64,000 bases of DNA, from contig VBEG01000025.1 in assembly GCA_005882115.1 (NCBI GenBank), positions 62,001 through 126,000 of the forward strand. Direction: 5' to 3'. Positions within the stretch are counted from its first letter, which is position 1, and every line of letters starts with the position of its first letter. This document shows, piece after piece, positions 2,956-64,000 of the stretch. The DNA comes from Chloroflexota bacterium (GTDB taxonomy: Bacteria > Chloroflexota > Dormibacteria > Dormibacterales > Dormibacteraceae). Both the position numbers and the translations under genes were made by a program. The notes beneath the pieces are model-generated. The model was not told the DNA's origin. It did not search any database and saw nothing but the letters and a program-made list of their open reading frames with translations.

Positions 2956-2961
2956 TACAGT
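2956..2961 (+). promoter_or_regulatory. Leaderless-type -10 box (TACAGT)
   Basis: TACAGT ends nine bases before the ATG at 2971, with no Shine-Dalgarno sequence between. Confidence 0.45.
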
Positions 2962-2970
2962 AGGTATGAA

Positions 2971-3528
2971 ATGGCCAGGATAGTCGTGCGCTTCTTCGAC
3001 GACGAGACCGTCGAAGGGGTGGCCCGCGATCTCGATTTCGACGAGCCGGACTTCCTCGTCGAGGTGGACGACGCCGGTGGCCTGGAGAACAACGAGACGG
3101 CCTGGATCCCGCTGACCGCCGTCAAATGGGTCGAGCTTCAGCGCGACAAGGAGCTGGCGGACACGCCGACGCGCAAGGTCGCCATCCGCTTCCTCGACGG
3201 CGAGGTCCTCCGGGGACATCTCGACGGCACGCTCGAGCGCCACCGCTACGGCGTTGTGCTCCACCTCCACGCGGAGCAGACCGACAGCCCCATCCGCAAG
3301 CTCGGCATTCCGTTCTCAGCTGTCAAAGCGCTCTTCTTCGTGCGCGAGTTCGACGCGCGCGGTGAGGAGGCAGGCACCGCTTCGGACGCGTACCTGGCCA
3401 GGCGGACCATGGCGCCGCTGCTGGACGTGCTCGAGGAGATGGACATGCTGACGCGGCTGCATCGCGACGGCCTGCTTTCCGACCACGAGTACGCCTCCAA
3501 GCGAACCCTGGTCCTGGAGCGCCTCTAA
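2971..3528 (+). CDS. Conserved hypothetical: two similar beta-rich repeats plus SHOCT-like tail
   Basis: 185 aa, soluble. Residues 1-55 ([20 protein letters not shown] ... [12 protein letters not shown]) and 65-125 ([19 protein letters not shown] ... [16 protein letters not shown]) look like two copies of one small beta-rich module, resembling the DUF6982 type by memory. The last 35 residues ([20 protein letters not shown], then an E and K/L-rich helix) resemble the SHOCT motif, a short C-terminal oligomerisation element. Function unknown. It follows the sigma factor by 22 bp but appears to have its own promoter. Confidence 0.8.
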
Positions 3529-3543
3529 CTTTTCTGATGCCGG

Positions 3544-3607
3544 CCGGATAGTCCGGACCAACCGGGGGATTGGGCGCGCCAGATTCCGGATAGTCCGGAC
3601 TATCCGG
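3544..3607. promoter_or_regulatory. Palindromic element upstream of pdxS (possible operator or terminator)
   Basis: A perfect 22-bp palindrome lies at 3586-3607 (half-site CCGGATAGTCC and its inverse). The 14-base sequence CCGGATAGTCCGGA from it also occurs at 3544-3557. The repeated, spaced arrangement 45-120 bp before the pdxS promoter suggests a protein-binding site. A terminator for the preceding gene is an alternative, but there is no T-run. Confidence 0.5.
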
Positions 3608-3651
3608 GGTGGTGGTGGGTGGGCCGGGGCCGCGATTCCAACTCGCCCGCG

Positions 3652-3657
3652 TAGAAT
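3652..3657 (+). promoter_or_regulatory. Leaderless-type -10 box of pdxS (TAGAAT)
   Basis: TAGAAT ends seven bases before GTG 3665, and no Shine-Dalgarno sequence fits between. It would put the transcription start at or next to the start codon. Confidence 0.6.
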
Positions 3658-3664
3658 CTCGAGC

Positions 3665-5186: not shown

Positions 5187-6130
5187 GAATCCGCGCGGCC
5201 GGACTCCTCGACCTGGCTCGCATCGAGGAGATGCATCGCTCGTCGGACATCAAGCTCAGCGAAGCCGCTCCGCCGGCGGCGCGACTCTGGTCGCTGCTCA
5301 GTTCAACACTCTCGGCCCTGCTGCCGCTCTCCCAGGAGACCCTGATGTACGTTGCCGAGGAGAACGGCAAGGTGGTCGGATTCATTCAGGCCTCGGGCCA
5401 ACCGATGAGCCTCGACCTGCGCCGGGCCCGCATCCTCCAGGTGCTCAACCTGCAGGTCGCCGACGAAGCCGACCCGGACGAGGTCGCGCCGGCGCTCGTC
5501 CAGCACCTCTGCAACCAAGCGCTCGAGCGAGGTGCTATCCGCCTGTTCGTCAGACTGCCTGACCGCGATGCGCTGCTGCCGGCCTTCCGGTTACAGGGCT
5601 TCCGCCAGTACGCGACGGAGCAGGTCGTCTACGCGGAAAGGCCACGGCCGCGTTCCGACCAGTACCCCGATGGTCTGCGCCCGGGCAAGCGAAGCGACGA
5701 CCGCCATCTCTATCAGCTCTATCGCAAGGTCACGCCGCAGGGGGTCTCCCAGCTCGAGGCGCCCACCTATCGCGAGTGGAAGGCGATCCACGCGGGCGAG
5801 TCGACGGGGAGCTACGTCGTGGACCGGATCGAGGTCGTCGGCTGGGTCAGGATGCAACGCGGCGGCGGCGCCCGGCCGGACACCCTGCAGTTCATGGCCT
5901 TGCCGGAGAATCCCCTCCCGGCGGAGCTCGCCGACTTCGGAATCTCGCTGCTCGGAGACTCCGAAGCGCCGGCCTGGTCAAGCCTGCGTCACTATGATTC
6001 GCACATGATCGACGCCCTCCGCGGGCGTGGGTTCACGGTCTTGCTCACGCAGCTCTTGTTGGTCAAAGAGCTTGCGGTGCGCGTGCCGAAGCCGGTGCGA
6101 GAGAAAGGACTGGTCCCCTCGTTCGGATGA
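5183..6130 (+). CDS. GNAT-fold acetyltransferase-like protein
   Basis: 315 aa. The first half resembles a GNAT domain: [20 protein letters not shown] (strand 1/helix 1), MYVAEENGKVVGFIQASG (strands 2-4), then an NQALERGAIRLFVRLPD segment and FRLQGFRQYATEQVVY. The classical acetyl-CoA loop is not clear. The second half (LRPGKRSDDRHLYQLYRKVT onward) looks like a second, diverged module. TTG 5183 overlaps the pdxT stop as TTGA. Substrate unknown. Confidence 0.72.
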   Translation: MRIRAAGLLDLARIEEMHRSSDIKLSEAAPPAARLWSLLSSTLSALLPLSQETLMYVAEENGKVVGFIQASGQPMSLDLRRARILQVLNLQVADEADPDEVAPALVQHLCNQALERGAIRLFVRLPDRDALLPAFRLQGFRQYATEQVVYAERPRPRSDQYPDGLRPGKRSDDRHLYQLYRKVTPQGVSQLEAPTYREWKAIHAGESTGSYVVDRIEVVGWVRMQRGGGARPDTLQFMALPENPLPAELADFGISLLGDSEAPAWSSLRHYDSHMIDALRGRGFTVLLTQLLLVKELAVRVPKPVREKGLVPSFG

Positions 6131-7683
6131 GCCAGGCCGAACGCCAACACGAGCGCCAGATCCGCGCCGCCAACTGGGACGAAGAGATCGAGCTGCTCGC
6201 GCGCGCGCTGCCACCCGACCTGGCGCGCGCTCTCCACGAGCGGATCGATCCGAGAGAGCTCCTGGAGATCGTCCTGGACCTCGGCCGGGAGCCCGAAGCC
6301 CGCGTCCCTGGTCGCGAGGTCCTGCTTGCGGATCATCCGGTCTCGACGTCCGACCTCGACCACGTCGCCAACAACGTCGGGCAATTCGGCGACGACAATC
6401 GGGCGGGCATCGAACGCACGCTGCATCGCGTCTCCGCGATTCGCAACCGCTCGGGCCGAATCGTGGGCCTGACGATGCGTGTCGGCCGGGCCGTCACCGG
6501 CACTGGCGAGATCATCCGCGACATCGTCGTGAGCGGTCAGAGCATCCTGCTGCTGGGCAGGCCTGGCATCGGAAAGACCACGATGCTGCGTGAGTGCGCG
6601 CGTCTTCTCGCGGACGAGCTGCGCAAGCGGGTCGTCATCGTCGACACCTCGAACGAGATAGGCGGCGACGGCGACATCCCACATCCGGGTATCGGTCGCG
6701 CTCGCCGCATGCAGGTCAGGACTCCGTTGCTGCAACACTCGGTGATGATCGAGGCGGTCGAGAACCACATGCCCGAGGTCATCGTGATCGACGAGATCGG
6801 CACCGAGCTTGAGGCTGCCGCAGCGCGCACGATCGCCGAGCGTGGCGTCCAGCTCATCGCCACCGCGCATGGGCAGACGCTCGAGAACCTCCTGGTCAAC
6901 CCGACGCTTAACGACCTGCTCGGCGGAATCCAGAGCGTGACCCTGTCCGACGAGGAGGCGCGCCGCCGCGGCACCCAGAAGTCGGTGCTCGAGCGCAAGG
7001 CGCCGCCCACGTTCGACGTCCTTGTCGAGATCCAGGACCGCGACCGCGTCGCGATTCATGTCCCGCTGGCCGACGTCGTCGACACCGCATTGCGCGGTCC
7101 GCTGCAGACGCCGAAGATCCGCGTCCGGACACGTGAGGGCCGTGTCATCTCCAACGTCGACGCCCCGACGCTTGTCGCAGCAGAACCCACGATGGCGACT
7201 GTTATGTCGTCCAAGCCCCTCGGCATCTTTCCTTACGGCGTGAGCAGGCATCACGTGGAGCAGTCGATCCGCGAGCTCGAGCTGCCGGTGAAAGTGCTGG
7301 GCAACCTGGACGGCGCGGGCGCGGTGCTGACGCTCAAGAATCACTACCGCCGGCGTCCGGACAGCCTGCGCCAGGCCGAGAGCCGCGGCCTTCCCATCCA
7401 CATCTTGAAGAGCAACTCGGCGAGCCAGGTCCGAGATGCGCTGTCCCGAATCTACGGCGTGGAAAGGCAGGACGAGGCGACCAACCGCGCCCTGGCGGAG
7501 GCGGCTGCGGCCATCCGCGAGGTGAAGACGACCTTGCGCCCGGTCGAGATCTCGCCGCAGAACGCGTACCTCAGGAGGCTGCAGCACCAGCTCGTCGCGG
7601 AGAACGCCCTTTCCGCGCGGAGCACGGGCAAGGAACCCCAGCGCCGACTCCGCATCACACCGTCTCCGGAAGAACCCGCCTAG
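6127..7683 (+). CDS. Ycf45/SpoIIIAA-like AAA ATPase with R3H-type C-terminus
   Basis: 518 aa. A central ATPase of the Ycf45/SpoIIIAA type has Walker A GRPGIGKTTMLREC, VVIVDTSNEIGGDGD, and Walker B VIVIDEIGTELEA, followed by ATAHGQTLENLLVNPTLNDL. The C-terminal region (ALSRIYGV ... AYLRRLQHQLV) resembles the R3H single-strand nucleic acid binding domain of this family. Residues after about 385 form an extra middle domain. Likely a soluble nucleic acid-associated ATPase of unknown role; no other sporulation genes are nearby. ATG 6127 overlaps the previous stop as ATGA. Confidence 0.88.
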   Translation: MSQAERQHERQIRAANWDEEIELLARALPPDLARALHERIDPRELLEIVLDLGREPEARVPGREVLLADHPVSTSDLDHVANNVGQFGDDNRAGIERTLHRVSAIRNRSGRIVGLTMRVGRAVTGTGEIIRDIVVSGQSILLLGRPGIGKTTMLRECARLLADELRKRVVIVDTSNEIGGDGDIPHPGIGRARRMQVRTPLLQHSVMIEAVENHMPEVIVIDEIGTELEAAAARTIAERGVQLIATAHGQTLENLLVNPTLNDLLGGIQSVTLSDEEARRRGTQKSVLERKAPPTFDVLVEIQDRDRVAIHVPLADVVDTALRGPLQTPKIRVRTREGRVISNVDAPTLVAAEPTMATVMSSKPLGIFPYGVSRHHVEQSIRELELPVKVLGNLDGAGAVLTLKNHYRRRPDSLRQAESRGLPIHILKSNSASQVRDALSRIYGVERQDEATNRALAEAAAAIREVKTTLRPVEISPQNAYLRRLQHQLVAENALSARSTGKEPQRRLRITPSPEEPA

Positions 7684-7783
7684 CACGGTTCGCCGACACG
7701 TGCGACGCAGATGGGCACTCTTTTGGCTTTTACGCTCGCGGCCGGCCAGATCCTGTCCAGGACTCAAACAGCAGCCGCTTAGC

Positions 7784-7789
7784 TACGCT
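7784..7789 (+). promoter_or_regulatory. Leaderless-type -10 box of tmk (TACGCT)
   Basis: TACGCT ends eight bases before ATG 7798 in a 114-bp gap with no other feature. Confidence 0.5.
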
Positions 7790-7797
7790 TCCCGCTC

Positions 7798-8729: not shown

Positions 8730-8941
8730 GTCTCTCGCCTTTGCTGGTCCTTGCAGCTTCGCGGTCTCGACGCCCGGGCGCCTGCGGCGCTGAAGCCTGC
8801 GTCAGGGGGCCCGGCGCTCAGTCGTCGCGCAGCTTTGGCTGCGCTCCTCGTCGCGCCACCCCTTCCTTGACTCCGGCCGTCGATCCTCGCGAATCTGCCG
8901 CGGCCCACAGAGTCGAGAGACTCTAGCTCAGGCTTTCACAG
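8730..8941. repeat. Intergenic spacer with dispersed repeat family B (copy 2)
   Basis: This 212-bp gap shares blocks 8798-8815 and 8840-8862 with the gap at 1943-2162, one mismatch each. A perfect 7-bp hairpin GCGCAGC/GCTGCGC with a TTTG loop lies at 8827-8844. ACTCCGGCCGTC near 8870 also matches part of repeat family A. No credible gene. Confidence 0.6.
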
Positions 8942-15226: not shown

Positions 15227-15232
15227 AGGTTA
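15227..15232 (-). promoter_or_regulatory. Leaderless-type -10 box of the DHA2 exporter (TAACCT)
   Basis: On the minus strand TAACCT ends seven bases before GTG 15219. It overlaps the stop codon of the upstream dehydrogenase (15230-15232). Confidence 0.5.
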
Positions 15233-16375: not shown

Positions 16376-16384
16376 TTCCTTACC

Positions 16385-17299
16385 TTAGGCGACCGCAGGC
16401 AGGACTTCCTTGCCTAGCAGGTCCAGCGCGTCCGAGTCGTCGAGCAGAAAGTGCTGGAGCATGAACAGGTCGACACCTAGCTTGCTGTGCTCGCGGATCT
16501 TGGCCGCGATCTCTTCCGGCGTTCCCACCAGCCACGGGCCGTTTCGGTTCTCGAGCACCTCTTCTGGGCGGAGGGACTTCAGGTCGGGGACGACCTCACG
16601 CACCTGCGCGGCGCGCTCCAGCTGGTCGGCGCGATCGCGGCCGATGATGTAGCTCGTCATCACGGAGCGGTGGATCGTCGCGGGATCGCGACCAATCTCG
16701 CGGCAGCACTGGTCGAGAGCATCGCGCCGGTCGCGGAACATGTCCGCGTCGAGTCGCGAGAGATTCCATTCCGTGGCCTCGCGTGCGACAAGTGGAATCG
16801 TGCGCTTGAGTCCCTTGCCGCCCATCAGCAGCGGGATGGTGTTGCGAGCTGGTCGGGGGTTCGTCTTGCTCCAGATGTCGCGCATCGTCTTGATGCCCGC
16901 CTCCAGTCGCTCGAATCGTTCGCGCTCCGTGAGGAATGGGATCCCGAAGACCGAGTGCTCGTTTTGATTCCACCCGGCGCCTACGCCGAGGATGAGCCGG
17001 CCGCCAGACAGCGCGTCCACCGACGCGGCGATCTTCGCCAGCACACCAGGAATGCGGAACGTCATCGGGCTCACCATTGGACCGAACTCGATCTTCTTGG
17101 TCCACTCCGCGGCCAGCGCGAGCGATTCCCAGCATTCGATGCAATCGCGCTCGCTGGTCCCCGGGCCCATCAGGGAGATGAGGTGGTCGCTGCGCCGCAG
17201 CGATGCGAAGCCGAGGCGCTCGACGTCGGCGCAGATGCGGCGCCAGCGCTCCCAGCTGAGGCCCTCCTGGCCCTCGAGCATGATTCCCAGCTTGGTCAT
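16385..17299 (-). CDS. LLM class (luciferase-like) oxidoreductase, probably F420-dependent
   Basis: 304-residue TIM-barrel protein of the bacterial luciferase superfamily. Seen: MTKLGIMLEGQEGLSWERW, FASLRRSDHLISLMGP, IEFGPMVSPMTFRIPGVLAK, ALSGGRLILGVGAGWNQNEH, and PLLMGGKGLKRTIPLVAREA. F420 use is inferred from subfamily and from the F420 operon at 39-42.6 kb; FMN is the alternative. The ATG overlaps the PHP gene stop as ATGA. Context with acyl-CoA dehydrogenases suggests a catabolic role. Confidence 0.88.
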   Translation of the reverse strand: MTKLGIMLEGQEGLSWERWRRICADVERLGFASLRRSDHLISLMGPGTSERDCIECWESLALAAEWTKKIEFGPMVSPMTFRIPGVLAKIAASVDALSGGRLILGVGAGWNQNEHSVFGIPFLTERERFERLEAGIKTMRDIWSKTNPRPARNTIPLLMGGKGLKRTIPLVAREATEWNLSRLDADMFRDRRDALDQCCREIGRDPATIHRSVMTSYIIGRDRADQLERAAQVREVVPDLKSLRPEEVLENRNGPWLVGTPEEIAAKIREHSKLGVDLFMLQHFLLDDSDALDLLGKEVLPAVA

Positions 17300-18303
17300 T
17301 GAGTCGCCATCGTAAGTTCATCCAAGGGACGGAAGTTCAGGATCCGTTCCTTCTCGATGCCGGCGCGGCGCGCCATCCACAGGGCCATGGGCACGTACGC
17401 AAACTCGGCCGGCGCGTGCGCGTCGGCGTCCACGACGAAGTTGCATCCGCACTCGTACGCGAGGCGAGCCATCTCCGGCGACAGGTCCATGCGCGCCGGG
17501 TCGCAATCGAGCTCCAGCGCGATGCCATGCTTGGCCGCTTCTTTGAAGACCGCTTCAAAGTCGTAGCTCGCTCCTTCGCGCGATCCGGGCCGCCTGCCCG
17601 TCGGGTGGCCGATCACGTCGACGTGCGGATGGGATGCGGCGCGGAGCATGCGCTCGGTCATGGCCGCAGCTTCCTGGCGCAGCTTGACGTGCGGCGAGGC
17701 GATGACCACGTCGAGGATCTCGAGCACGGCATCGGGCAGATCGAGCCCGCCGTCCTCGAGGATGTCGACCTCGATGCCCTGGAGCAACGTGACACTTTCG
17801 ACCTGCTTCTGGACCTCGGCCATCTCGCGCGACTGGGCAACGAGGCGCTCCGCGTTGAGCCCATGGACCACGGTAATTCGCGGCGAGTGATCGGTGACCC
17901 CGAGGTAGCTGTAGCCGAGGGCTTGCGCGCCCTGCGCCATCTCCAGCATCGTCGCCCGGCCGTCGCTCCAGTTGGTGTGCGAGTGCACGTCGCCCTGGTA
18001 ATCGTTGAAGTCGAGCTCTGATTCGTCGTCGCGCGCCGGTTGCTGCATCTCCTCGCGCAGGCGATTCAGGTAGCGGCTCTGGCCGGTCTGCACGAAGTCA
18101 GAGAGCACTCTGGCGATGCCTTCGCCGACGCCTTCGATCTGGGTCAGGCTCTCAGTTCGCTGAAGGGACTCGAGGTCTGGGCGCTGCATGGCGATCGACC
18201 AGGCGGCCGCCGAGAAGGCCTTCGCCCGGAAACGTTCCTTCTCGTTCTGCCGCAGGAGATAGCCAATCTCGGACAGCGCCTGAGCCGCGGCGATCGCGTC
18301 CAC
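17296..18303 (-). CDS. PolX-like protein: 8-kDa/HhH domain joined directly to a PHP domain
   Basis: 335 aa. Residues 1-95 match the N-terminal 8-kDa domain of family X polymerases with a helix-hairpin-helix (IEGVGEGIARVLSDFVQTG). Residues from about 115 form a PHP metal-dependent phosphoesterase (DVHSHTNWSDGRATMLEMA, YLGVTDHSPR, GIEVDILEDG, VIGHPTGRRPG, LELDCDPARMDLS, VVDADAHAPAEF). The polymerase palm/fingers/thumb between them is missing, so it cannot be a polymerase; a DNA 3' exonuclease or phosphatase role is inferred. GTG 18303 gives the family start; longer frames run into folE. Confidence 0.85.
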   Translation of the reverse strand: MDAIAAAQALSEIGYLLRQNEKERFRAKAFSAAAWSIAMQRPDLESLQRTESLTQIEGVGEGIARVLSDFVQTGQSRYLNRLREEMQQPARDDESELDFNDYQGDVHSHTNWSDGRATMLEMAQGAQALGYSYLGVTDHSPRITVVHGLNAERLVAQSREMAEVQKQVESVTLLQGIEVDILEDGGLDLPDAVLEILDVVIASPHVKLRQEAAAMTERMLRAASHPHVDVIGHPTGRRPGSREGASYDFEAVFKEAAKHGIALELDCDPARMDLSPEMARLAYECGCNFVVDADAHAPAEFAYVPMALWMARRAGIEKERILNFRPLDELTMATQ

Positions 18304-31049: not shown

Positions 31050-31055
31050 TAGACT
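31050..31055 (+). promoter_or_regulatory. Leaderless-type -10 box of ispH (TAGACT)
   Basis: TAGACT ends nine bases before ATG 31065, in a 21-bp gap from the divergent RDD gene. Confidence 0.55.
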
Positions 31056-33029: not shown

Positions 33030-34187
33030 TTGGATCTCGCGGCAGTCCTTCTGGTCGTGTCGGTCCTCTTCGTCATTGCCTTCATCCTGCTCACCGTGAG
33101 CCTGATGCGACAGCGCGGTACGGCGCGTGAGCTGGAAGCGGCCCTGGCAGACGAGAGCGGCGCGCGTGACAGGGCGGCGCTCCTTCTCGCGATCGCCTCC
33201 GCGGTCAACTCGTCCCTCGCCCTGGAGGAAGTCCTCAACGTCGCCCTGACCCACGCCGGCCGGATCATGGGCGCCGTCGCCGGCGCCATGTACCTCGTGC
33301 GCACCGGCAAGGCCGAGATGTATCGCGAGGCTTCGTACAACCTGACCACCCGCGCCCGCGGCGGCACGCGCAAGCTCGACGAGGAGCCGTTGAGCTCGGC
33401 GATAGGCGCCATGCGGCCGCTCGTGGTCAAGCTCGACGAGCACACCGCGCCCGGGCTCGAGCTCGGCGGGCATCCCCAGCACGCGCTGGTCGTGCCGATC
33501 CAGCGCTCGGGCCAGCTCATGGGTGCGATGGAGCTCTACCTGAACGCCTGGCGGGAGCTCTCCGAGGACCAGGCCGACCTGCTGAACGGTGTCGCGTCGC
33601 AGGCGGCGATCGCGATCCGTCACGCGCAGCTGTTCCAGGCGCAGGAGGAGAACGCCCTCACCGACGAGCTGACCAAGCTGCCCAACCGGCGCGCGCTGGC
33701 CCAGGAGTTTCTCAAGGAGATGCAGCGCGCGCGACGCCATAAGAACGCGATTGCGTTCGTGATGATCGACATCGACCACTTCAAGCAGGTCAACGACACC
33801 TATGGCCACCTCAACGGCGACGCCGTCCTGGCGGAGCTTGCCCAAATCCTGAAAGGAGGTGCCCGCGAGTCTGACGTCTGCGCGCGCTATGGCGGCGAGG
33901 AGTTCGCGCTGATCCTCCACGAGACGACGGAATCAGGCGCGCGGGTGCTGGCGGAACGGATCCGTTCCAAGGTCGCAGCCTCGACCTTCCCCGGTGGGTT
34001 GAACCTGACGATCAGCGTCGGCGTGGCGGCCACGGACGACGCCACGCTTTTCACGCAGCTGATCGACCGCGCCGACCAGGCGCTGTACGCCGCCAAGCAG
34101 GGCGGCCGCAACCAGGTGCGCGTCGCGGACATGAAGGGCCCGGCGCCCAAATCCCATATGACCAAGCCCGAGGTCGAAGCGGTCTAA
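33030..34187 (+). CDS. Membrane-anchored GAF-GGDEF diguanylate cyclase
   Basis: 385 aa. One N-terminal helix (AAVLLVVSVLFVIAFILLTV), a GAF-type sensor at about residues 45-205 (AALLLAIASAVNSSLALEEV onward to AAIAIRHAQLFQAQEENA), and a GGDEF domain (LTDELTKLPNRRALAQEFLK, MIDIDHFKQVNDTYGHLNGD, YGGEEFALILHE). The active site is GGEEF, and an RxxD inhibitory site (RESD) lies five residues before it, so c-di-GMP synthesis with product inhibition is expected. TTG start with GGGAGG upstream. Confidence 0.94.
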   Translation: MDLAAVLLVVSVLFVIAFILLTVSLMRQRGTARELEAALADESGARDRAALLLAIASAVNSSLALEEVLNVALTHAGRIMGAVAGAMYLVRTGKAEMYREASYNLTTRARGGTRKLDEEPLSSAIGAMRPLVVKLDEHTAPGLELGGHPQHALVVPIQRSGQLMGAMELYLNAWRELSEDQADLLNGVASQAAIAIRHAQLFQAQEENALTDELTKLPNRRALAQEFLKEMQRARRHKNAIAFVMIDIDHFKQVNDTYGHLNGDAVLAELAQILKGGARESDVCARYGGEEFALILHETTESGARVLAERIRSKVAASTFPGGLNLTISVGVAATDDATLFTQLIDRADQALYAAKQGGRNQVRVADMKGPAPKSHMTKPEVEAV

Positions 34188-34190
34188 GCT
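34185..34190 (+). promoter_or_regulatory. Leaderless-type -10 box of the NUDIX gene (TAAGCT)
   Basis: TAAGCT ends eight bases before GTG 34199 and contains the stop codon of the preceding diguanylate cyclase gene. Confidence 0.5.
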
Positions 34191-35849: not shown

Positions 35850-35855
35850 GACTCC

Positions 35856-35862
35856 TAACATA
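35856..35862. promoter_or_regulatory. Bidirectional -10: TAACAT (+) and TATGTT (-) overlapping
   Basis: TAACAT (35856-35861) ends nine bases before ATG 35871 of the CHASE2 cyclase. TATGTT on the minus strand (35862-35857) ends seven bases before GTG 35849 of the MFS gene. The two hexamers share five base pairs. Confidence 0.6.
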
Positions 35863-39164: not shown

Positions 39165-39171
39165 TAAGCTA
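39165..39171. promoter_or_regulatory. Bidirectional -10: TAAGCT (+) and TAGCTT (-) overlapping
   Basis: TAAGCT (39165-39170) ends seven bases before GTG 39178. TAGCTT on the minus strand (39171-39166) ends seven bases before GTG 39158 of birA. The two start codons are 20 bases apart, so this promoter would drive birA and the F420 operon. Confidence 0.65.
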
Positions 39172-43422: not shown

Positions 43423-43428
43423 TACAAT
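43423..43428 (+). promoter_or_regulatory. Leaderless-type -10 box of yqeY (TACAAT)
   Basis: TACAAT, a near-consensus -10, ends seven bases before ATG 43436. Confidence 0.6.
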
Positions 43429-44655: not shown

Positions 44656-44661
44656 TATCCT
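44656..44661 (+). promoter_or_regulatory. Leaderless-type -10 box (TATCCT)
   Basis: TATCCT ends seven bases before ATG 44669. The intervening bases are T plus six G, so a purine-rich ribosome site cannot be fully excluded. Confidence 0.5.
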
Positions 44662-44668: not shown

Positions 44669-45589
44669 ATGGCCGCTCCTGAACCTCGGCTGGCAGACGT
44701 CGAATACGTCGAGGTCCAATGCAAATCGGCCCTGAACCCCGTCAAGAACATGGGCTTCGCGTGGTCGCTGAATCCCTACACCGGCTGCGAGCACCGCTGC
44801 GCCTTTTGCTATGTCCGCGCATTCGAGCTCCGCGCCGATCGGCCATCTGACGACCGCTACGGCCGGACGGTCCGGATCAAGGTCAACGTCGCCTCCGTTC
44901 TCCGCGGCGAGCTGTCGCGCCGGTCGTGGCGGAAAGAGACCATAGTCATCGGCGCCGCGACCGATCCCTATCAGCCGGCGGAAGGCCGCTACCGCCTTAC
45001 CAGGCAATGCCTGCAGACGCTTGGCGACTTCGCCAACCCTGCGGCCATGATCACGCGCGGCCCGATGATCGTCCGCGACATCGATGTGCTGACCGACCTC
45101 GCGCGCCGTGCTGACCTGCACATCACCTTCAGCATCCCGACGCTCGACGACGACATTTGGCGCAAGACCGAGCCGGGCACCGCCCATCCCAAGCAGCGGC
45201 TGCGCGCCATCGAGAAGCTTGTGGCCGCGGGCATCGACGTCGGCGTAGGTATGGCGCCCATCCTTCCGGGCCTGTCCGACCGGCCTGAGCTGCTCGAGGA
45301 GGTCGTCAAGGCCGCGCGGGCTGCCGGGGCGACCGGACTGTGGGCGGGCATGCTGCACCTCAAGGACGGCACGCGGGAGCACTTCCTCTCCGTTCTCGCG
45401 CGCCACTGGCCCGAGCTGCTGCCGCGCTACGAGCAGGCCTACCGCGACCGCGCTTACCTGCCCACGGCCTTTGGCGAGAAGACCATGCGCGAGGTGTCGC
45501 ACCTGCGTTCGCATCACGGAGTTGCGGACCGCAGGCGCGTAATCCTCAAACCACCGCCGGAACCCGAACAGCTCTCCCTCCTGAATTAG
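44669..45589 (+). CDS. Radical SAM protein (Rv2578c family)
   Basis: 306 aa. The radical SAM cluster motif CxxxCxxC is in NPYTGCEHRCAFCYVRAFEL. Other features are VIGAATDPYQPAEGRYRLTR, RDIDVLTDLARRADLHITFS and GMAPILPGLSDRPELLEEVV, as in the actinobacterial Rv2578c group related to spore photoproduct lyase-like proteins. Substrate unknown. Confidence 0.9.
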   Translation: MAAPEPRLADVEYVEVQCKSALNPVKNMGFAWSLNPYTGCEHRCAFCYVRAFELRADRPSDDRYGRTVRIKVNVASVLRGELSRRSWRKETIVIGAATDPYQPAEGRYRLTRQCLQTLGDFANPAAMITRGPMIVRDIDVLTDLARRADLHITFSIPTLDDDIWRKTEPGTAHPKQRLRAIEKLVAAGIDVGVGMAPILPGLSDRPELLEEVVKAARAAGATGLWAGMLHLKDGTREHFLSVLARHWPELLPRYEQAYRDRAYLPTAFGEKTMREVSHLRSHHGVADRRRVILKPPPEPEQLSLLN

Positions 45590-45592
45590 CAT
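45587..45592 (+). promoter_or_regulatory. Possible leaderless-type -10 box (TAGCAT)
   Basis: TAGCAT ends ten bases before ATG 45603 and contains the stop of the radical SAM gene. Confidence 0.35.
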
Positions 45593-46721: not shown

Positions 46722-46727
46722 TAGGCT
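46722..46727 (+). promoter_or_regulatory. Leaderless-type -10 box of the kinase gene (TAGGCT)
   Basis: TAGGCT ends nine bases before ATG 46737; no Shine-Dalgarno sequence in between. Confidence 0.45.
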
Positions 46728-51183: not shown

Positions 51184-51189
51184 TAATCT
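51184..51189 (+). promoter_or_regulatory. Leaderless-type -10 box of the DinB-like gene (TAATCT)
   Basis: TAATCT ends eight bases before ATG 51198. Confidence 0.5.
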
Positions 51190-55328: not shown

Positions 55329-55336
55329 CAGTCGAA

Positions 55337-55585
55337 GTGCAGCCTTAGGCCGGATTCACTCCGGCCGTCCCCGGGCGTGTAACGCCTGACGCCTCCCCGT
55401 GGAGGCTTGCCACAGAGGGGGTTCCGCGGGGGAGGCCTGCCTCCCCCGCGCCTTACTGCTAGACGAGGTGCAGCCGTAGGCCGGATTCACTCCGGCCGTC
55501 CCCGGGCGTCTATCGCCAGACGCCTCCATGGTGGCCTGCCACGGAGGGGGTTCCGCGGGGGAGGCCTGCCTTCCCCGCGCCTTAG
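55337..55585. repeat. REP-like tandem pair, family A, copy locus 2
   Basis: Two units start at 55337 and 55468 (period 131 bp), each beginning GTGCAGCC and carrying TAGGCCGGATTCACTCCGGC, a GCCTCC/GGAGGC-type hairpin and a CGGGGGAGGCCTGCCT(C/T)CC stem. They are clearly related to 595-832. The array lies between convergent GH15 and pccB genes, and unit 2 reaches the pccB stop. Probable bidirectional transcription end region. Confidence 0.85.
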
Positions 55586-57219
55586 AGCGGGATGTTGCCG
55601 TGCTTGCGCGCTGGCCTTTCGACCGTCTTGCGCAGGCACAGCTGCAAACCTCGGACCAGCTCGCGTCTGGTCTGACTCGGCTCGATGACGTCGTCGATGT
55701 AGCCCCGCTCGGCGGCGACGTAGGGGTTGGCGAAGCGTGTCGTGTATTCGGCGACGAGCTCCTTGCGGCGCGCCGCCGGGTCGCGCGCGCCGGAAAGGTC
55801 GCGTTTGTAGATTATGTTCACGGCTGCGTCGGGGCCCATCACCGCGATCTCGGCCGTCGGCCAGGCGAGGTTCAAGTCGGCGCCCATCTGCTTGGGTGAC
55901 ATCACGCAGTACGCGCCGCCGTAATCCTTGCGCGTGATCACGGTCAGCTTGGGCACTGTCGCCTCGGCATACGCATAGAGCAGCTTCGCGCCGTGTCGGA
56001 TGATCCCGCCGTGCTCCTGGTCGCGGCCAGGCAGGTAACCGGGCACATCGACGAACGAGATGATGGGGATGCCGAACGCGTCGCAAAAGCGAATGAACCG
56101 GGCCGCCTTCACTGAGGCGTTGATGTCGATGGCTCCCGCCAGTACCTTCGGCTGGTTGCCGACGATGCCTACGACGTGGCCGCCAAGCCGGCCGAGCCCG
56201 ACGATGATGTTGGGCGCGAAGAACGGCTGTACCTCGAAGAACTCACGGCCATCCAGCACTCGCGAGACAACCTCGCGCATGTCGTACGGCTTGTTGGGCG
56301 ATTCGGGAACGATCGTCTGCAGCTCGACATCGGCACGTTCGAGGTCGTCGGTCGTAGGCACGAAGGGCGGCCGCTCCGAGTTCGAGGAGGGCAGATAGGA
56401 CAGAAGCTTGCGCACGCCGGCCGCGCATTCGGGCTCAGTCTTCGGTAGAAAGTGCGCGACGCCGGATGTTGCGTTGTGGACGTGGCCTCCGCCGAGCTCA
56501 TCGAATGAGACGGCCTCTCCAGTCACGACCTTGATGACTTCGGGGCCGGTGATGAACATGTAGCCCTGACCGGCGACGATGAAGATGAAGTCGGTGATGG
56601 CCGGGGAGTAGACGGCGCCTCCCGTGCACGGACCGGCGATGACGCTGAGCTGCGGGATGACGCCCGACGAGCGAACGTTGCGATAGAAGATGTCCGCGTA
56701 GCCCGCAAGTGCGACCACCCCTTCCTGGATGCGCGCGCCGCCTGAATCATTGATGCCGATGATGGGCACGCGGTTGCGCAGGGCCAACTCCTGCACCTTG
56801 ACGATCTTTTCGGCGGTCACCTCGCCGAGCGAGCCGCCGAAAACCGTCGCGTCATACGCGTAGACCGCAACCGGCCGGCGGTCGATCTCGCCAAAACCCG
56901 CGACCACGCCGTCACCGGCGATCTTGCGGTCTTCCATGCCGAAGCCATGGGCGCGATGAGTCGCGAAAACGTCGAGCTCTACGAACGAAGCTTCGTCGAG
57001 AAGCATCTCGATGCGGTCGCGCGCGGTCGCCTTGCCCGCGGCCCGACGTTTGTTGGCAGCCTCGGTCTCCGCGTGCAGGGCCTGGTAGCGGCGCTTGCGG
57101 TACTGGTTGATCTTCTGCTCGGACACGGTTGCCGCCGCTCTCTCCGGAGCTTCGACTCCTTCGAGGCTTGGCGTCGTGCGGCGAACTGGCGAAAGTGATC
57201 GAGGTTTCCGCGCTGCCAT
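55582..57219 (-). CDS. pccB: Acyl-CoA carboxylase carboxyltransferase beta subunit (PccB/AccD-like)
   Basis: About 545 aa. Carboxyltransferase beta subunit: KATARDRIEMLLDEASFVEL, VFGGSLGEVTAEKIVKVQEL, IIGINDSGGARIQEGVVALA, VIAGPCTGGAVYSPAITDFI, ISFVDVPGYLPGRDQEHGGI and PYVAAERGYIDDVIEPSQTR. It carboxylates propionyl- or acetyl-CoA with a biotinylated alpha subunit that is not in the window. ATG 57219 is preferred, six bases after TACGAT; ATG 57225 is also in frame. The divergent LysR gene may control it. Confidence 0.95.
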   Translation of the reverse strand: MAARKPRSLSPVRRTTPSLEGVEAPERAAATVSEQKINQYRKRRYQALHAETEAANKRRAAGKATARDRIEMLLDEASFVELDVFATHRAHGFGMEDRKIAGDGVVAGFGEIDRRPVAVYAYDATVFGGSLGEVTAEKIVKVQELALRNRVPIIGINDSGGARIQEGVVALAGYADIFYRNVRSSGVIPQLSVIAGPCTGGAVYSPAITDFIFIVAGQGYMFITGPEVIKVVTGEAVSFDELGGGHVHNATSGVAHFLPKTEPECAAGVRKLLSYLPSSNSERPPFVPTTDDLERADVELQTIVPESPNKPYDMREVVSRVLDGREFFEVQPFFAPNIIVGLGRLGGHVVGIVGNQPKVLAGAIDINASVKAARFIRFCDAFGIPIISFVDVPGYLPGRDQEHGGIIRHGAKLLYAYAEATVPKLTVITRKDYGGAYCVMSPKQMGADLNLAWPTAEIAVMGPDAAVNIIYKRDLSGARDPAARRKELVAEYTTRFANPYVAAERGYIDDVIEPSQTRRELVRGLQLCLRKTVERPARKHGNIPL

Positions 57220-57224
57220 CCGCA

Positions 57225-57231
57225 TATCGTA
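57225..57231. promoter_or_regulatory. Bidirectional -10: TATCGT (+) and TACGAT (-) overlapping
   Basis: TATCGT (57225-57230) ends seven bases before GTG 57238 of the LysR gene. TACGAT on the minus strand (57231-57226) ends six bases before ATG 57219 of pccB. The hexamers share five base pairs; start codons are 19 bases apart. Confidence 0.6.
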
Positions 57232-57237
57232 GGCGCC

Positions 57238-58203
57238 GTGCCGCGGCCCGACCTTCAGCTGGACCTCGATCGCGCGGTCACGCTGCGCCAGCTGCGAACG
57301 TTCAAAACGGTCGCCGATTTGAAGAGCTTCAGCCTGGCCGCGCAGCGCCTCAAGCTCAGCCAACCGTCGATCTCCTACCAGGTCAAGGAGCTCGAAGAGG
57401 CGCTCGGTGTGCCGCTCCTCGACAGGCTCGGCAAGAAGGTTCAGCTGACCGAAGCCGGGACCGTGCTGTACGGCTACGCGCGGAGAATGCTCGACGTCCT
57501 CGACGAGGCCAAGGTCGCGGTGGAGGAGATACGGGGCATCAAGCGCGGCACCCTGCGTGTGGGCGCGAGCACGACCGTGGGTATCTACTTGCTGCCCGCC
57601 GCCCTCGGCGCTTTCAAGAAGCTGCACCCAGGCCTTGTGATCTCGCTCGAGATTGGGACGCGGGAGCGCGTTCAGGAGCAGGTCCTTAACAGCGAGTTGG
57701 ACCTGGCGGTGGTCGGGCCGGCACTGAAAGATCCTGAGCTCGCGATCATCCCGTTTCTCAGCGATGAGCTGGTGGTGGTCGCGCCGGCGGGTCACGCGCT
57801 CGCCGGAAAGAAGCACCTCGATCTCAAAGACGTCGCCGCCCAACCATTCGTCATGCGCGAGGCGGCCTCGGGCAGCAGGTGGTCACTGGAGAAGGCGGCG
57901 CGCAAGGCGGGGGCCAAGCTCCATGTCGCGATGGAGCTTGGATCCAACGGCGCGATCAAGCACGCGGTGGAATCGGGCCTCGGCCTGGCGGTCATCTCTC
58001 GCTACGCGTGCGCGCTCGAGTTTGCGAGCGGGCGCCTGGTCGAGCTCGACGTGCGCGGTTTCCCGATCCGCCGCGACTGGCACATCGTCTACCTCCGCAA
58101 GCGCAAGCTGCCCTCGTCGGTGCACGCCTTCATCGAGTTTCTGAAAGGCACGAGCTGGTTGTCGCGCAACGGCTCGCGCGGCGTGCGCCCGCCGACCGAC
58201 TAG
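57238..58203 (+). CDS. LysR-type transcriptional regulator
   Basis: 321 aa. N-terminal helix-turn-helix: TLRQLRTFKTVADLKSFSLA, AQRLKLSQPSISYQVKELEE, ALGVPLLDRLGKKVQLTEAG. The effector domain starts KRGTLRVGASTTVGIYLLPA and resembles CysB/CbbR-type sensors. Its divergent placement from pccB, with shared promoter bases, suggests control of acyl-CoA carboxylation. The inducer is unknown. Confidence 0.93.
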   Translation: MPRPDLQLDLDRAVTLRQLRTFKTVADLKSFSLAAQRLKLSQPSISYQVKELEEALGVPLLDRLGKKVQLTEAGTVLYGYARRMLDVLDEAKVAVEEIRGIKRGTLRVGASTTVGIYLLPAALGAFKKLHPGLVISLEIGTRERVQEQVLNSELDLAVVGPALKDPELAIIPFLSDELVVVAPAGHALAGKKHLDLKDVAAQPFVMREAASGSRWSLEKAARKAGAKLHVAMELGSNGAIKHAVESGLGLAVISRYACALEFASGRLVELDVRGFPIRRDWHIVYLRKRKLPSSVHAFIEFLKGTSWLSRNGSRGVRPPTD

Positions 58204-58211
58204 ATGGCCGC

Positions 58212-60156: not shown

Positions 60157-60182
60157 CCAGTTCAAATTCGACCTAGAGCGAC

Positions 60183-60188
60183 TAAGCT
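60183..60188 (+). promoter_or_regulatory. Leaderless-type -10 box of the amidase gene (TAAGCT)
   Basis: TAAGCT ends eight bases before ATG 60197. Confidence 0.5.
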
Positions 60189-60196
60189 CCCCGGCG

Positions 60197-61483
60197 ATGC
60201 GGGACGTGATCGGAGCGCCGGCCGGTTGGATCGCGCGCGCGATCCGGACCAAGAAGCTTTCCGCGGTTGAGGTGGTGCGAGCGCATCTGGAGCACATCCA
60301 CACCGTGAACCCCCGCCTGAACGCTGTGGTTTTCGCGACCGCCGAGAGCGCGATCAAGGAAGCTCGAACCGCCGACCGCCACAACACCCGGGGGAGCGCG
60401 CTCGGCCCGCTGCACGGCGTGCCGTTCACGGTCAAGGACATCTTCAACACCGCGGGCCTGCCGACAACCGCCGGCCTTCGCATTCTGCGCAGCCGCATCC
60501 CAGACCATGACGCCACAGTGGTGGCCCGGATGCGCCGGGCAGGCGCGATCTTGATCGGCAAGACGAACTGCCCGCCGATCCATGGCGAGAACAGCTGGAG
60601 CCCTCTGCACAGCGGCACGCGTAACCCGTACGACATCAACCGCTCGCCAGGTGTGAGCAGCAGCGGCGAGGCCGCGATCATCGCCGCGGGCGGATCGCCG
60701 CTCGGTCTCGGCAGCGACTCCGGAGGCAGCATCCGTCTACCTGCGCATTACTGTGGGGTCGCCGCCCTCAAGCCCACCGCGGGGCTGGTGCCGGTGACGG
60801 GCGGATACGGATTGGTGGGGGGCATGACGGACCCTCGCAGCCAGGTCGGGCCGATGGCGCGCTACGCGGCGGATCTCGCCATCGCGCTCCGCGTGCTCGC
60901 CGGGCCGGACGGGATCGACTCCGGCGTTGTCCCGGTCCCGCTGCCGAAGCGGGTGCCGAAGCTGGGTGGGCTGCGCGTCGCGTGGTACGCCGACGATGGA
61001 ATGGCCAAGCCCATGCCGGCGATCACCGCCACCGTGAAGGCGGCCGCCAGGGCGCTGGCGTCGGCTGGTTGCGTGGTCACCGAGGAGCGGCCGCCCTGGC
61101 TGACCGAGGCCTACCAGCTGACCATGGGCTTTTGGGGTCGCAAGCACATGAACCGCGACCGCATGGACCGCCGCTGGGATGCATTTCGCTCCTCGGTTCT
61201 GAAGTTCATGTCCCGCTTCGACCTGGTGCTCAGCCCGGTCGCCCCCGACATCGCCCCTCTCTATAAGGCCAAGGTCGTGGGCGATCACCAGTTCAGCTAC
61301 ACGATGCCGTACAGCCTTTCCGGAAACCCGTGCGTCGTCGTCCGGGCGGGCACCTCGCCGGAGAACCTACCGATCGGAGTCCAGATCGTGGCCGCAGGCT
61401 GGCACGACGACGTGGCGATCCGCGCCGCTCAAGCCGTTGAGCGGAAGCTGGGTGGCTGGCGTCCTGCTAGCGTGGTCCGGTGA
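60197..61483 (+). CDS. Amidase signature family protein
   Basis: 428 aa. Ser-cisSer-Lys triad: Lys in GVPFTVKDIFNTAGLPTT, cis-Ser in GVSSSGEAAIIAAGGSPLGL, nucleophile Ser in SDSGGSIRLPAHYCGVAALK. SRSP-like NRSPGVSS replaces the usual GGSSGG run. The C-terminal half (YSLSGNPCVVVRAGTSPENL, PIGVQIVAAGWHDDVAIRAA) is typical. It could hydrolyse an amide or carbamate; without gatB/gatC next to it, a GatA role is unlikely. Confidence 0.9.
   Translation: MRDVIGAPAGWIARAIRTKKLSAVEVVRAHLEHIHTVNPRLNAVVFATAESAIKEARTADRHNTRGSALGPLHGVPFTVKDIFNTAGLPTTAGLRILRSRIPDHDATVVARMRRAGAILIGKTNCPPIHGENSWSPLHSGTRNPYDINRSPGVSSSGEAAIIAAGGSPLGLGSDSGGSIRLPAHYCGVAALKPTAGLVPVTGGYGLVGGMTDPRSQVGPMARYAADLAIALRVLAGPDGIDSGVVPVPLPKRVPKLGGLRVAWYADDGMAKPMPAITATVKAAARALASAGCVVTEERPPWLTEAYQLTMGFWGRKHMNRDRMDRRWDAFRSSVLKFMSRFDLVLSPVAPDIAPLYKAKVVGDHQFSYTMPYSLSGNPCVVVRAGTSPENLPIGVQIVAAGWHDDVAIRAAQAVERKLGGWRPASVVR
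61468..61473 (+). promoter_or_regulatory. Possible internal -10 box (TAGCGT)
   Basis: TAGCGT ends six bases before GTG 61480. It lies inside the amidase coding end, so it may be chance. Confidence 0.3.
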
Positions 61484-63462
61484 GGTTTCGCTACTCACGC
61501 TGGGACGGCACGCAAAAGCTCGACGACCTGGATGCAGGCGACGTGCTGGACGCGCTTTCCGATGACCTGATGAACTACGGCGACCTCAACGCGGCGCTGC
61601 AGCGCTTCCTCCGCTGGGGTTCGCCCAACATGCCCGGACTGGAGCAGCTGCTTAAGCAGCTTCGGGAGTCGCGTGAGCGAGAGCTAGGCCGCTACAACCT
61701 CGACTCCACCGTCGAGGAGCTGCGCCAGAAGGTGCAGGACGTCATCGACACCGAGCGCGCCGGGATCGAACGCAGGCTGCAGGAAGCCACGCCTGAGGGC
61801 CGCAAGCTGCTCGACCGGATCGCGCGACAGCGCAACGACCAGCTCGACCGGCTGCCCGACGACCTGGGTGGGCGCGTCAAGGGCCTGCGCAACTACGAGT
61901 TCGTCGATGACGCCGCCCGGCAGAAGTTCGAAGAGCTGATGCAGCAGCTGCAGAAACAGATGCTGGACCAGATGTTCCAGGGCATCAAAGGCTCGCTCGA
62001 GCAGATGCAGGGTCAGGACCTGTCGCGCGTGCGTGACATGGTGCGCGAGCTGAACAAGATGCTCGAGCAGCGGATGGAAGGTCGCACGCCTGACTTCCAG
62101 GGCTTCATGCAGAAGTTCGGCGATATGTTCCCTCCGGGAATAAACAACCTCGACGAGCTGCTGGAGCACCTGCAGCGCCAGATGGCGCAGATGCAGTCGT
62201 TGCTGCAGAGCCTGAGCCCCGAAGCTCGTGAGGAGCTGCGTCAGATGATGGACTCGCTCCTACAGGACGACTCGCTCCGGCTCGAGCTGGCGCGCCTGTC
62301 CGGCTTCATGCAGGCGATGATGCCGCCCTCCGAGCTGAGCGAGCGCTATCCGTTCTTCGGCGAGGACCCGCTGACCATGGGCGAGGCGATGCAGCTCATG
62401 GAGCGGCTGCAGCAGATGGATCGGCTCGAGTCGCAGCTGGAGCGGGGAAGCTTCCGCCCTGACGACGTCGACCGCTCCCTCGCGCAACAGCTCCTCGGAC
62501 CCGAGGCGCGTCAAGCGCTGGATCAGCTGCGCCAGGTCACCGACGTGCTGGAGAAGGCGGGCTACGTTGAGCGCAAGGGCCGAAGGCTGGAGCTCACGCC
62601 GCGGGGTATGCGCCGGATCGGACAATCGGCGTTACGCGACATCTTCGACCAGCTCAAGAAGACGCGCATGGGCCAGCACCAGCTGTGGCGCGGCGGCATC
62701 GGCACCGACGCCTCCGAGGAATTGAAGGCGTACGAGTACGGCGACCCGTTCCTGCTCGAGATGAAGGAGACCCTCTTCAACTCGATCGTCCGTGAAGGGC
62801 CGAAGGTCCCGGTCCCCATCGCGCCGCAGGATTTCATCGTCCATCGCACCGAGCACCAAACACAGGCTTCTACGGTCTTGATGATCGACATGAGCCGGTC
62901 GATGTTTCTTCGCGGCTGCTTTCTCGCCGCCAAGAAGGTTGCCATCGCGCTTGACTCGCTCATCCGCAGCCAGTACCCGCGCGACTCGCTGTACGTGGTC
63001 GGCTTTTCCAACTATGCGGTCGAGCTCAAGCCGCATACGCTTCCGCAGTTGGCGCTCAACGACTACGTGTACGGCACGAACATGCAGCATGGCTTCCAAC
63101 TAGGGCGTTCGCTGCTGGCGAAGCACCGCGGTAACCGCCAGATCATCATGATCACCGACGGCGAGCCGACCGCCCACATCGAAGAGAACGGAAAGGCACA
63201 GTTTGCTTATCCGCCGACCTATCGCACGATCCAGCAGACGCTGAGCGAGGTCAAGCGCTGCACGCGTGACCGCATCGTGATCAATACCTTCATGCTCGAG
63301 CGCGGTCCGTACCTGACCGAGTTCATCAACCAGATGACCAAGATCAACAAAGGGCGCGCGTTTTTCGTCTCCCCGGACCGGCTCGGCGAGTACGTCCTGG
63401 TCGACTACGTGAGCGGCAAACAGCGACGCCGTTCGAGCGCGCGGCGCGCCCGCATCGCGTAA
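61480..63462 (+). CDS. von Willebrand factor type A (MIDAS) domain protein
   Basis: 660 aa, soluble. Residues about 60-450 are charged, helical and Gln/Leu-rich (LMQQLQKQMLDQMFQGIKGS and similar). The C-terminal vWA domain has an intact MIDAS: VLMIDMSRSMFLRGCFLAAK (DxSxS), YGTNMQHGF (Thr) and IIMITDGEPTAHI (Asp). Such proteins usually pair with a MoxR/ChlI-type AAA ATPase, but none is adjacent. GTG 61480 overlaps the amidase stop as GTGA. Confidence 0.87.
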   Translation: MRFRYSRWDGTQKLDDLDAGDVLDALSDDLMNYGDLNAALQRFLRWGSPNMPGLEQLLKQLRESRERELGRYNLDSTVEELRQKVQDVIDTERAGIERRLQEATPEGRKLLDRIARQRNDQLDRLPDDLGGRVKGLRNYEFVDDAARQKFEELMQQLQKQMLDQMFQGIKGSLEQMQGQDLSRVRDMVRELNKMLEQRMEGRTPDFQGFMQKFGDMFPPGINNLDELLEHLQRQMAQMQSLLQSLSPEAREELRQMMDSLLQDDSLRLELARLSGFMQAMMPPSELSERYPFFGEDPLTMGEAMQLMERLQQMDRLESQLERGSFRPDDVDRSLAQQLLGPEARQALDQLRQVTDVLEKAGYVERKGRRLELTPRGMRRIGQSALRDIFDQLKKTRMGQHQLWRGGIGTDASEELKAYEYGDPFLLEMKETLFNSIVREGPKVPVPIAPQDFIVHRTEHQTQASTVLMIDMSRSMFLRGCFLAAKKVAIALDSLIRSQYPRDSLYVVGFSNYAVELKPHTLPQLALNDYVYGTNMQHGFQLGRSLLAKHRGNRQIIMITDGEPTAHIEENGKAQFAYPPTYRTIQQTLSEVKRCTRDRIVINTFMLERGPYLTEFINQMTKINKGRAFFVSPDRLGEYVLVDYVSGKQRRRSSARRARIA

Positions 63463-63484
63463 GCCTTTCCTCGACGCCGTTGCT

Positions 63485-63490
63485 TATTCT
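63485..63490 (+). promoter_or_regulatory. Leaderless-type -10 box of pckA (TATTCT)
   Basis: TATTCT ends eight bases before ATG 63499. Confidence 0.55.
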
Positions 63491-63498
63491 GAAAACAG

Positions 63499-64000
63499 AT
63501 GGCCTCTAAGACCGAAGTTGCCGTCGAACGCCGGAATCTGAGCCCGGCGGCACTCTACGAGCACGCGGTGCGGCGAGGCGAAGCCGCGATCGTGTCCACC
63601 GGCGCCTTGACGGCTGAGACCGGCAAGCACACTGGGCGCTCGCCCAAGGACAAGTTCTTCGTCAGAGAGTCGACCAGCCAGGACGCGATCTGGTGGCACC
63701 CGGGCAACCAGCCAATCCCCCCCGACAAATTCGACGGACTGTTGCGCCGGATGCAGGAGTTCATCGCGACCCACGAGGTGTACACCCAGGACGTGTTTGC
63801 CTGTGCCGACGCGCGCTACCGGTTGAGTGTGCGGGTCATCACTGAGCTGGCGTGGCACAGCCTGTTCGCGCGCAACCTGTTCATCCGCCCCAACGCCGAC
63901 GAGCTGCTCGCGTTCGAGCCGGACTTCACCGTCATCGCGCTGCCCTCCGTGAAGGCAGATCATGCACGCGACGGCACTCGCAGCGAAACCTTCGTCCTGG
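63499..64000 (+). CDS. pckA: ATP-type phosphoenolpyruvate carboxykinase, 3' truncated by window
   Basis: First 167 residues only. MASKTEVAVERRNLSPAALY, then the family motif TGALTAETGKHTGRSPKDKF with FFVRESTSQDAIWW, VYTQDVFACADARYRLSVRV and SLFARNLFIRP match ATP-dependent PEPCK. The enzyme converts oxaloacetate to PEP for gluconeogenesis. The nucleotide-binding loop lies beyond the window end. Confidence 0.94.
   Translation, partial: MASKTEVAVERRNLSPAALYEHAVRRGEAAIVSTGALTAETGKHTGRSPKDKFFVRESTSQDAIWWHPGNQPIPPDKFDGLLRRMQEFIATHEVYTQDVFACADARYRLSVRVITELAWHSLFARNLFIRPNADELLAFEPDFTVIALPSVKADHARDGTRSETFVL

Follow-up and report, generated by a model that had tools for sequence, protein, structure and literature searches.

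TANNNT hexamers in the 64-kb window

The window analysed here is the whole 64-kb stretch from position 62,001 to 126,000 of contig VBEG01000025.1 (G000:C47:62001-126000), which belongs to the assembly GCA_005882115.1 of a Chloroflexota bacterium of the class Dormibacteria (host genome G000; 3.36 Mb, 147 contigs, 96.5% complete). A sizeable minority of its genes are preceded, a few bases before the start codon, by a hexamer of the sequence TANNNT, which probably represents the -10 element of promoters giving rise to leaderless or nearly leaderless mRNAs (Table 1). The R3H/ATPase protein encoded at 6127-7680 has its best named match, with 95% identity, in a Chloroflexi metagenome-assembled genome (L021); the next ones are found in genomes assigned to Candidatus Dormiibacterota (L022, 89%), Candidatus Dormibacteraeota (L023, 92%) and Chloroflexi (L024, 91%). 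Together with protein trees, these matches place the genome in Candidatus Dormibacterota.

Starts were assigned by a motif-blind gene caller, which uses an in-frame hexamer coding score and the start codon only and ignores the upstream sequence. A TANNNT was counted as start-proximal when its first T lies at -16 to -12, which places the hexamer 6 to 10 bp before the start. All 11 hexamers listed in a preliminary description of the window are present with the letters given there, and their first T is located at -13 to -15. The "about twenty" genes mentioned in the same description correspond to 19, namely 16 of the 63 called starts of genes ending inside the window together with 63499, 15219 and 34199. 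Shuffling bases -24 to -5 within each window gene gave a mean of 2.6 and a maximum of 9 matches in 2000 shuffles, compared with the 16 observed. The caller start coincides with nine of the 11 listed starts; 15219 was moved to 15156, and 34199 was dropped, although its product matches the NUDIX family. The matches at 17299 and 61480, which are both located inside the upstream gene, may be due to chance.

The 11 genes had been described as lacking a Shine-Dalgarno (SD) sequence, which is weakly contradicted by a 4-base SD-like match at 2971, 31065 and 51198. The genes 20039, 33030 and 46604, which had been named as examples with a clear SD, indeed have no hexamer at -16 to -12; a TANNNT is found at -22 of 20039, and the caller favours other starts for 33030 and 46604. 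The TAG of the hexamer at 31065 was considered as an upstream stop codon and rejected, as Pfam gave no match for the plus-strand open reading frame (ORF) that ends at this TAG, whereas a gene of the RDD family is located on the minus strand.

Table 1. Start-proximal TANNNT hexamers of the window. Offsets refer to the first T of the hexamer; gaps are distances in bases to the upstream gene.
Hexamer	Position	Strand	Offset and start codon	Gene and context
TACAGT	2956..2961	+	-15 of ATG 2971	DUF6982 gene; gap 22
TAGAAT	3652..3657	+	-13 of GTG 3665	SOR/SNZ family gene; gap 136
TACGCT	7784..7789	+	-14 of ATG 7798	Thymidylate kinase family; gap 114
TAACCT	15227..15232	-	-13 of GTG 15219	MFS transporter; TAA doubles as stop codon of 15230-16375; caller start 15156
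TAAGGT	16382..16387	-	-12 of ATG 16375	Acyl-CoA dehydrogenase; gap 9; TAA doubles as stop codon of 16385-17299
TACGAT	17309..17314	-	-15 of ATG 17299	Luciferase-like monooxygenase; within upstream gene (gap -4), chance quite possible
TAGACT	31050..31055	+	-15 of ATG 31065	LytB family; divergent from minus-strand RDD-family gene (called start 31028)
TAAGCT	34185..34190	+	-14 of GTG 34199	NUDIX gene; TAA doubles as stop codon of the GGDEF gene (end at 34187)
TAACAT	35856..35861	+	-15 of ATG 35871	CHASE2-cyclase gene; overlaps the start codon of a divergent MFS gene; two starts 9 bases apart
TAAGCT	39165..39170	+	-13 of GTG 39178	62-residue ORF, no Pfam match
TACAAT	43423..43428	+	-13 of ATG 43436	YqeY-like protein
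TATCCT	44656..44661	+	-13 of ATG 44669	Radical SAM protein; gap 44
TAGCAT	45587..45592	+	-16 of ATG 45603	98-residue ORF, no Pfam match; gap 13; TAG doubles as stop codon of the upstream gene (end at 45589)
TAGGCT	46722..46727	+	-15 of ATG 46737	Protein kinase domain; gap 174
TAATCT	51184..51189	+	-14 of ATG 51198	DinB family protein; gap 18
TATCGT	57225..57230	+	-13 of GTG 57238	LysR regulator; divergent; gap 111
TAAGCT	60183..60188	+	-14 of ATG 60197	Amidase; gap 40
TAGCGT	61468..61473	+	-12 of GTG 61480	VWA-domain protein; within upstream gene (gap -4), chance quite possible
TATTCT	63485..63490	+	-14 of ATG 63499	Coding sequence runs past the window end

Two further observations concern the gene arrangement. 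The NUDIX gene (34199-34753, plus strand) and the neighbouring MFS gene (34617-35861, minus strand) overlap tail to tail by 137 bases, and in the minus-strand ORF 55582-57843 the carboxyltransferase match (residues 248-753) is preceded by a stretch of about 240 residues, with the caller placing the start of the gene at 57126.

Positional peak and Shine-Dalgarno sequences in the genome

The preliminary description had staked its claim in advance on a genome-wide positional enrichment of TANNNT, and this enrichment is present in the 52% of the genome that was analysed (1.74 Mb, GC content of 65%). The caller predicted 1628 genes (87% coding) in this portion; after exclusion of 34 genes open at a contig end, seven less than 100 bases from an end and 24 without an upstream neighbour, 1563 starts were retained. 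Of the 448 divergent starts, 108 have a start-proximal TANNNT, as do 59 of the 406 same-strand starts with a gap of at least 50 bases and 60 of the 709 starts with a gap below 50, and the rates are much alike when the contig piece of the window is excluded (101/422, 55/389 and 50/670). The excess over control windows amounts to 21.4%, 12.4% and 7.5%, respectively, and rises only slightly at divergent genes, to 23.3%, when alternative starts within 60 nt are allowed. Thus, a leaderless or nearly leaderless -10 architecture appears to be present at about 13% of all starts and 21% of the divergent ones.

The divergent and wide-gap starts (n=854) together have 167 matches, compared with 20.2 expected from positions -90 to -31, and the trio T, A, T at offsets 0, 1 and 5 ranks first of 1344 gapped trios. 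The peak has a hard edge at -12, with one, one and zero matches at -11 in the three classes; if the start codon is +1, -12 is the nearest possible place for a -10 hexamer. TANNNT in the same position is rare before in-frame internal ATGs (21/7722) and antisense ATGs (33/16830), and 1000 within-gene shuffles of bases -24 to -5 resulted in a mean of 34.6 and a maximum of 53 matches. The same pipeline was applied to control sequences, with divergent and wide-gap starts scored as observed versus expected matches and small gaps counted apart. No excess was seen for E. coli (6 vs. 9.2, 90 starts; small gaps 1 vs. 0.6) and Sinorhizobium meliloti pSymB (3 vs. 3.1, 113 starts; small gaps 1 vs. 0.6), and an excess was found for Deinococcus MP1 (10 vs. 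3.2, 72 starts; small gaps 0 vs. 0.3).

SD sequences are depleted, rather than absent, at starts with the hexamer: a 4-base SD match is present at 32 of 227 TANNNT starts versus 531 of 1336 other starts. At divergent starts, SD-like 4-mers are no commoner than in control windows (121/448 vs. 127 and 118) and 5-mers slightly commoner (52 vs. 39 and 31); a positional GGAG peak exists. The anti-SD sequence CCTCC is intact in the 16S rRNA of the seven relatives examined, which were substituted for the host's own 16S, not found in the assembly (the partial L208 was omitted). Many of the 1563 starts have neither a clear SD nor a TANNNT.

Within tight gene strings, the hexamer is linked to the stop codon of the preceding gene, which provides the TA in 20 of the 60 matches with a gap below 50. 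At gaps of 9 to 13 bases, where the stop falls at the -10 position, TAA or TAG is followed by a sixth-place T in 20 of 43 cases, compared with 17 of 150 where the gap is different (p 2e-6), and TAA/TAG are used over TGA in 43 of 58 cases versus 99 of 184 at gaps of 14 to 45 (p 0.006; 89/140 at gaps below 9). The relatives G005, G022 and L021-L029 show the same dependence of the sixth-place T (10/15 vs. 3/27). For two of the 11 listed hexamers, 15219 and 34199, the TA belongs to the TAA stop of the upstream gene; these hexamers are partly due to stop codons, but perhaps not wholly. A literature search for promoters overlapping stop codons in connection with leaderless genes found none, the sole match being a start codon that overlaps a stop.

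Conservation in relatives and distribution in Chloroflexota

A comparison of 91 orthologous starts with eight relatives revealed that the element is conserved gene by gene: it is present in both the host and the relative in 20 cases, in the host only in four, in the relative only in six and in neither in 61 (Fisher p 3e-11, with pairs that are not all independent). The host genes with the element comprise 18 distinct genes, 14 of which keep TANNNT in every relative compared. In the 24 pairs with an element in the host, it is kept in 20, at the same base in only ten. In the same-genus relative G005, the element lies within -16 to -12 in eight of ten cases and at the same base in one of ten, and the bases just upstream are 30% identical. 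TANNNT located elsewhere (-60 to -22) is kept in none of six cases. The same-base identity of T, A and T (0.56 vs. 0.44 just upstream) is a weak measure; same-base conservation is low because the element shifts between relatives, and its presence within -16 to -12 is the better one. Selection seems to maintain a -10 element at a permitted distance rather than a fixed sequence. The excess itself recurs in G005 (16 vs. 1.8 expected, 87 starts; small gaps 7 vs. 0.0) and in the same-family relative G022 (7 vs. 1.9 expected, 80 starts; small gaps 4 vs. 0.2).

The distribution of the trait was followed in 121 Chloroflexota genomes by an index, in which whole-genome counts of TANNNT-N6..10-ATG are divided by those of TANNNT-N11..15-ATG, so that only ATG starts are counted. 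All 15 Dormibacteria, from four families, have an index of 1.21-2.25 with a z of 4.8 or more. Among the 106 other genomes, 13, which are all sampled members of the families f11, f21, f30 and f32, reach 1.59-4.48, and the remaining 93 have an index of 0.89-1.22. The ranges touch, with G031 of the Dormibacteria at 1.21 (z 5.0) and G087 of family f13 at 1.22 (z 3.1); G127 has a z of 4.5 at 1.12. The index is diluted in genomes of higher A+T content, and weak leaderless use may occur elsewhere in Chloroflexota. The top index, 4.48 (318 vs. 71 whole-genome matches), belongs to G068 of family f21, suggesting a heavier leaderless use than in the lineage of the window.

Nine named loci of the Dormibacteria clade (L021-L029) have 12 matches versus 1.3 expected (53 starts; small gaps 12 vs. 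0.3, 73 starts), and four loci grouping with f32 (L034, L049, L052, L095) have 8 versus 0.8 (30 starts; small gaps 12 vs. 0.3, 43 starts). Other named loci of Chloroflexota and other phyla with a GC content of at least 58% have 28 versus 11.9 (274 starts; small gaps 4 vs. 2.9, 199 starts), or 22 versus 10.6 (small gaps 2 vs. 2.9) when L057 and L088 are removed. These two loci lie outside the two leaderless groups; L057 (HR29) has five and L088 (Dehalococcoidia SJ161) three start-proximal TANNNT starts. Together with the weaker excess in the other loci, they suggest low-level leaderless use outside the two groups.

A single-protein tree was built with 44 indexed rows, which include 10 of the 13 high genomes outside the Dormibacteria and one genome from each of 29 other families; G031 is absent from it. 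The two groups form separate clades (SH-like approximate likelihood ratio test, SH-aLRT, 100 and 87), and the trait, cut at an index of 1.25, changes twice on a backbone that is weakly supported. The second clade may correspond to the Limnocylindria. Genome-wide leaderless expression might thus have arisen at least twice in Chloroflexota, in Dormibacteria and in the second clade, and Dormibacteria might often draw the TA of a -10 element from the TAA or TAG stop codon of the preceding gene, thereby giving genes in tight strings leaderless promoters of their own. We regard this combined proposal as tentative and as somewhat below even odds; it is made less likely by the fact that named loci belonging to neither group show a weaker excess as well.

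Proposed leaderless promoters and rival explanations

No -35 element was detected at the start-proximal hexamers by aligned frequencies, by a scan of 8556 gapped trios, in which the best z was 5.2 and a TTGACA pattern did not emerge, or by matching of TTGACA with spacers of 14 to 20 bp. For TANNNT located farther upstream in intergenic DNA, TTG is found at a distance of 17 bp in 17 of 392 cases, compared with 2-12 at the other ten spacings, and GAC (18; others 4-9) and TGA (14; others 2-12) peak in the matching register, which is what a -10 element with a TTGAC-type -35 in a subset of the upstream TANNNT would give. RpoD is present in the genome with a score over the family cut-off, and its regions 2.4 and 4.2 presumably are ordinary.

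With a probability of roughly 0.9, the TANNNT is the -10 element of primary-sigma promoters, which are placed so that the mRNA begins with the start codon, or only a few bases away from it, and is read leaderless. The leaderless interpretation of the preliminary description is supported by the sharp peak, the edge at -12, the specificity for the trio, the gene-by-gene conservation and the SD depletion; from these we infer where transcription starts, which sigma factor acts and that translation is leaderless. In the proposed mechanism, RNA polymerase with the primary sigma factor (sigma-70) would recognise TANNNT as -10 element and start at or a few bases from the start codon, resulting in an mRNA without an SD leader, whose 5'-terminal AUG or GUG is presumably recognised by the ribosome. 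The remaining genes would have SD leaders or neither signal.

Several points weigh against this interpretation. TTG lies at 17 bp in only 5 of 193 start-proximal matches, and since these lack a -35 element, the promoter identity of any single match is weak. Where the first T lies at -16 or -15, the mRNA may have a short leader of a few bases. At the same distance from the start, the reverse complement ANNNTA (47 vs. 19.1) and the reversed motif TNNNAT (65 vs. 26.8) likewise exceed expectation by a factor of about 2.4, so that part of the signal reflects general A+T richness. In the index scan of the host genome, the reversed pattern even exceeds the real one (788 vs. 614); it is independent of spacing (847 at spacers of 11-15) whereas the real pattern drops to 389, and the reversed control is therefore read as an effect of base order and the scan at spacers of 11-15 was taken as control. 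The hexamer partly covers the SD positions, and ATNNNT (0/11) and ATNNNA (2/17), one class each, are SD-depleted too; part of the SD depletion may be geometric. Lastly, in one 50 kb stretch of E. coli, the caller recovered 38 of 42 annotated stops, but its start equals the annotated one in just 29 of these 38 genes.

The hexamers could also be real -10 elements of secondary promoters, with the main transcripts starting farther upstream and carrying leaders. Matches occur inside gene strings (52/294 at gaps of 6 to 49), where upstream read-through is likely, and the matches as a set have no -35; however, the rate is highest at divergent genes and SD sequences are depleted at the matches, which makes this explanation unlikely. 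It is very unlikely that TANNNT is a translational signal, i.e., an element other than SD that binds the ribosome or S1 and is part of an ordinary leader. It is located where a ribosome binding site would be and is anticorrelated with SD, and passages of PMC5397173 discuss U-rich signals of the S1 type near -10 in other phyla. However, TANNNT is rare at overlapping or abutting genes (7/336 at gaps of -4 to 5, to which coding constraint contributes) despite SD-like 4-mers at 152 of 336, the exact T-A-NNN-T pattern with its edge at -12 fits a -10 hexamer, and a subset of TANNNT away from starts has the -35-like element at 17 bp. That the hexamers are a by-product of local A+T richness and of preceding TAA/TAG stops is hardly credible: upstream stops explain a third of the small-gap matches, and other A/T trios of the same geometry reach up to 1.6-fold, but the strongest peak is seen at divergent genes, which have no upstream stop, TANNNT is enriched 8.3-fold versus 1.7-fold for the next trio of the same geometry, shuffles fall far below the observed count, and the sixth-place T on stops depends on spacing.

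Leaderless genes with a TANNNT are established in bacteria, as passages of PMC3160421, PMC12340547 and PMC5397173 describe. According to parts of PMC12340547, the start-proximal -10 motifs of Deinococcus mostly have no -35 and were reported to be sufficient in reporters. The promoters proposed here resemble the -10-motif genes of Deinococcus-Thermus described there in that the ORF follows within a few bases of a TANNNT, whose T1, A2 and T6 are nearly invariant in that group, a classical -35 is mostly missing and SD genes coexist. They differ in spacing (about 6-7 bp in Deinococcus-Thermus vs. 6-10 bp in the Dormibacterota genome) and in share, nearly one third of the genes of D. radiodurans, tested with reporters, versus about 13% of starts here, estimated from sequence alone. 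High GC content and a TANNNT near -12 are shared with the leaderless genes of Actinobacteria, a different phylum, in which 19.2% of genes are leaderless on average by the method of that study (passages of PMC3160421). For Chloroflexi, the leaderless figures of Zheng et al. are 4 of 12 genomes and 4.7% of genes on average (same passages), and the bacterial genomes with leaderless transcription treated by GeneMarkS-2, as cited in part of PMC9581028, represent a close known system. Among the literature matches listed, there is no report of a leaderless architecture for Dormibacterota, with subscription papers, the GeneMarkS-2 tables and the phylum-scan figures of PMC12340547 lying outside the search; the sole listed match joining leaderless and Dormibacter- merely cites the title of a gene finder. 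The architecture is that of Deinococcus and Actinobacteria and hence of a known kind, in a lineage for which it is apparently unreported.

If read in this way, the hexamers would add a soil lineage that is largely uncultured to the bacteria with heavy leaderless expression. Within one phylum, the trait is strong in two groups and weak or lacking in the other genomes sampled; owing to this patchy occurrence, its gain and loss can be tested. Gene callers that rely on SD sequences likely misplace starts in these genomes.

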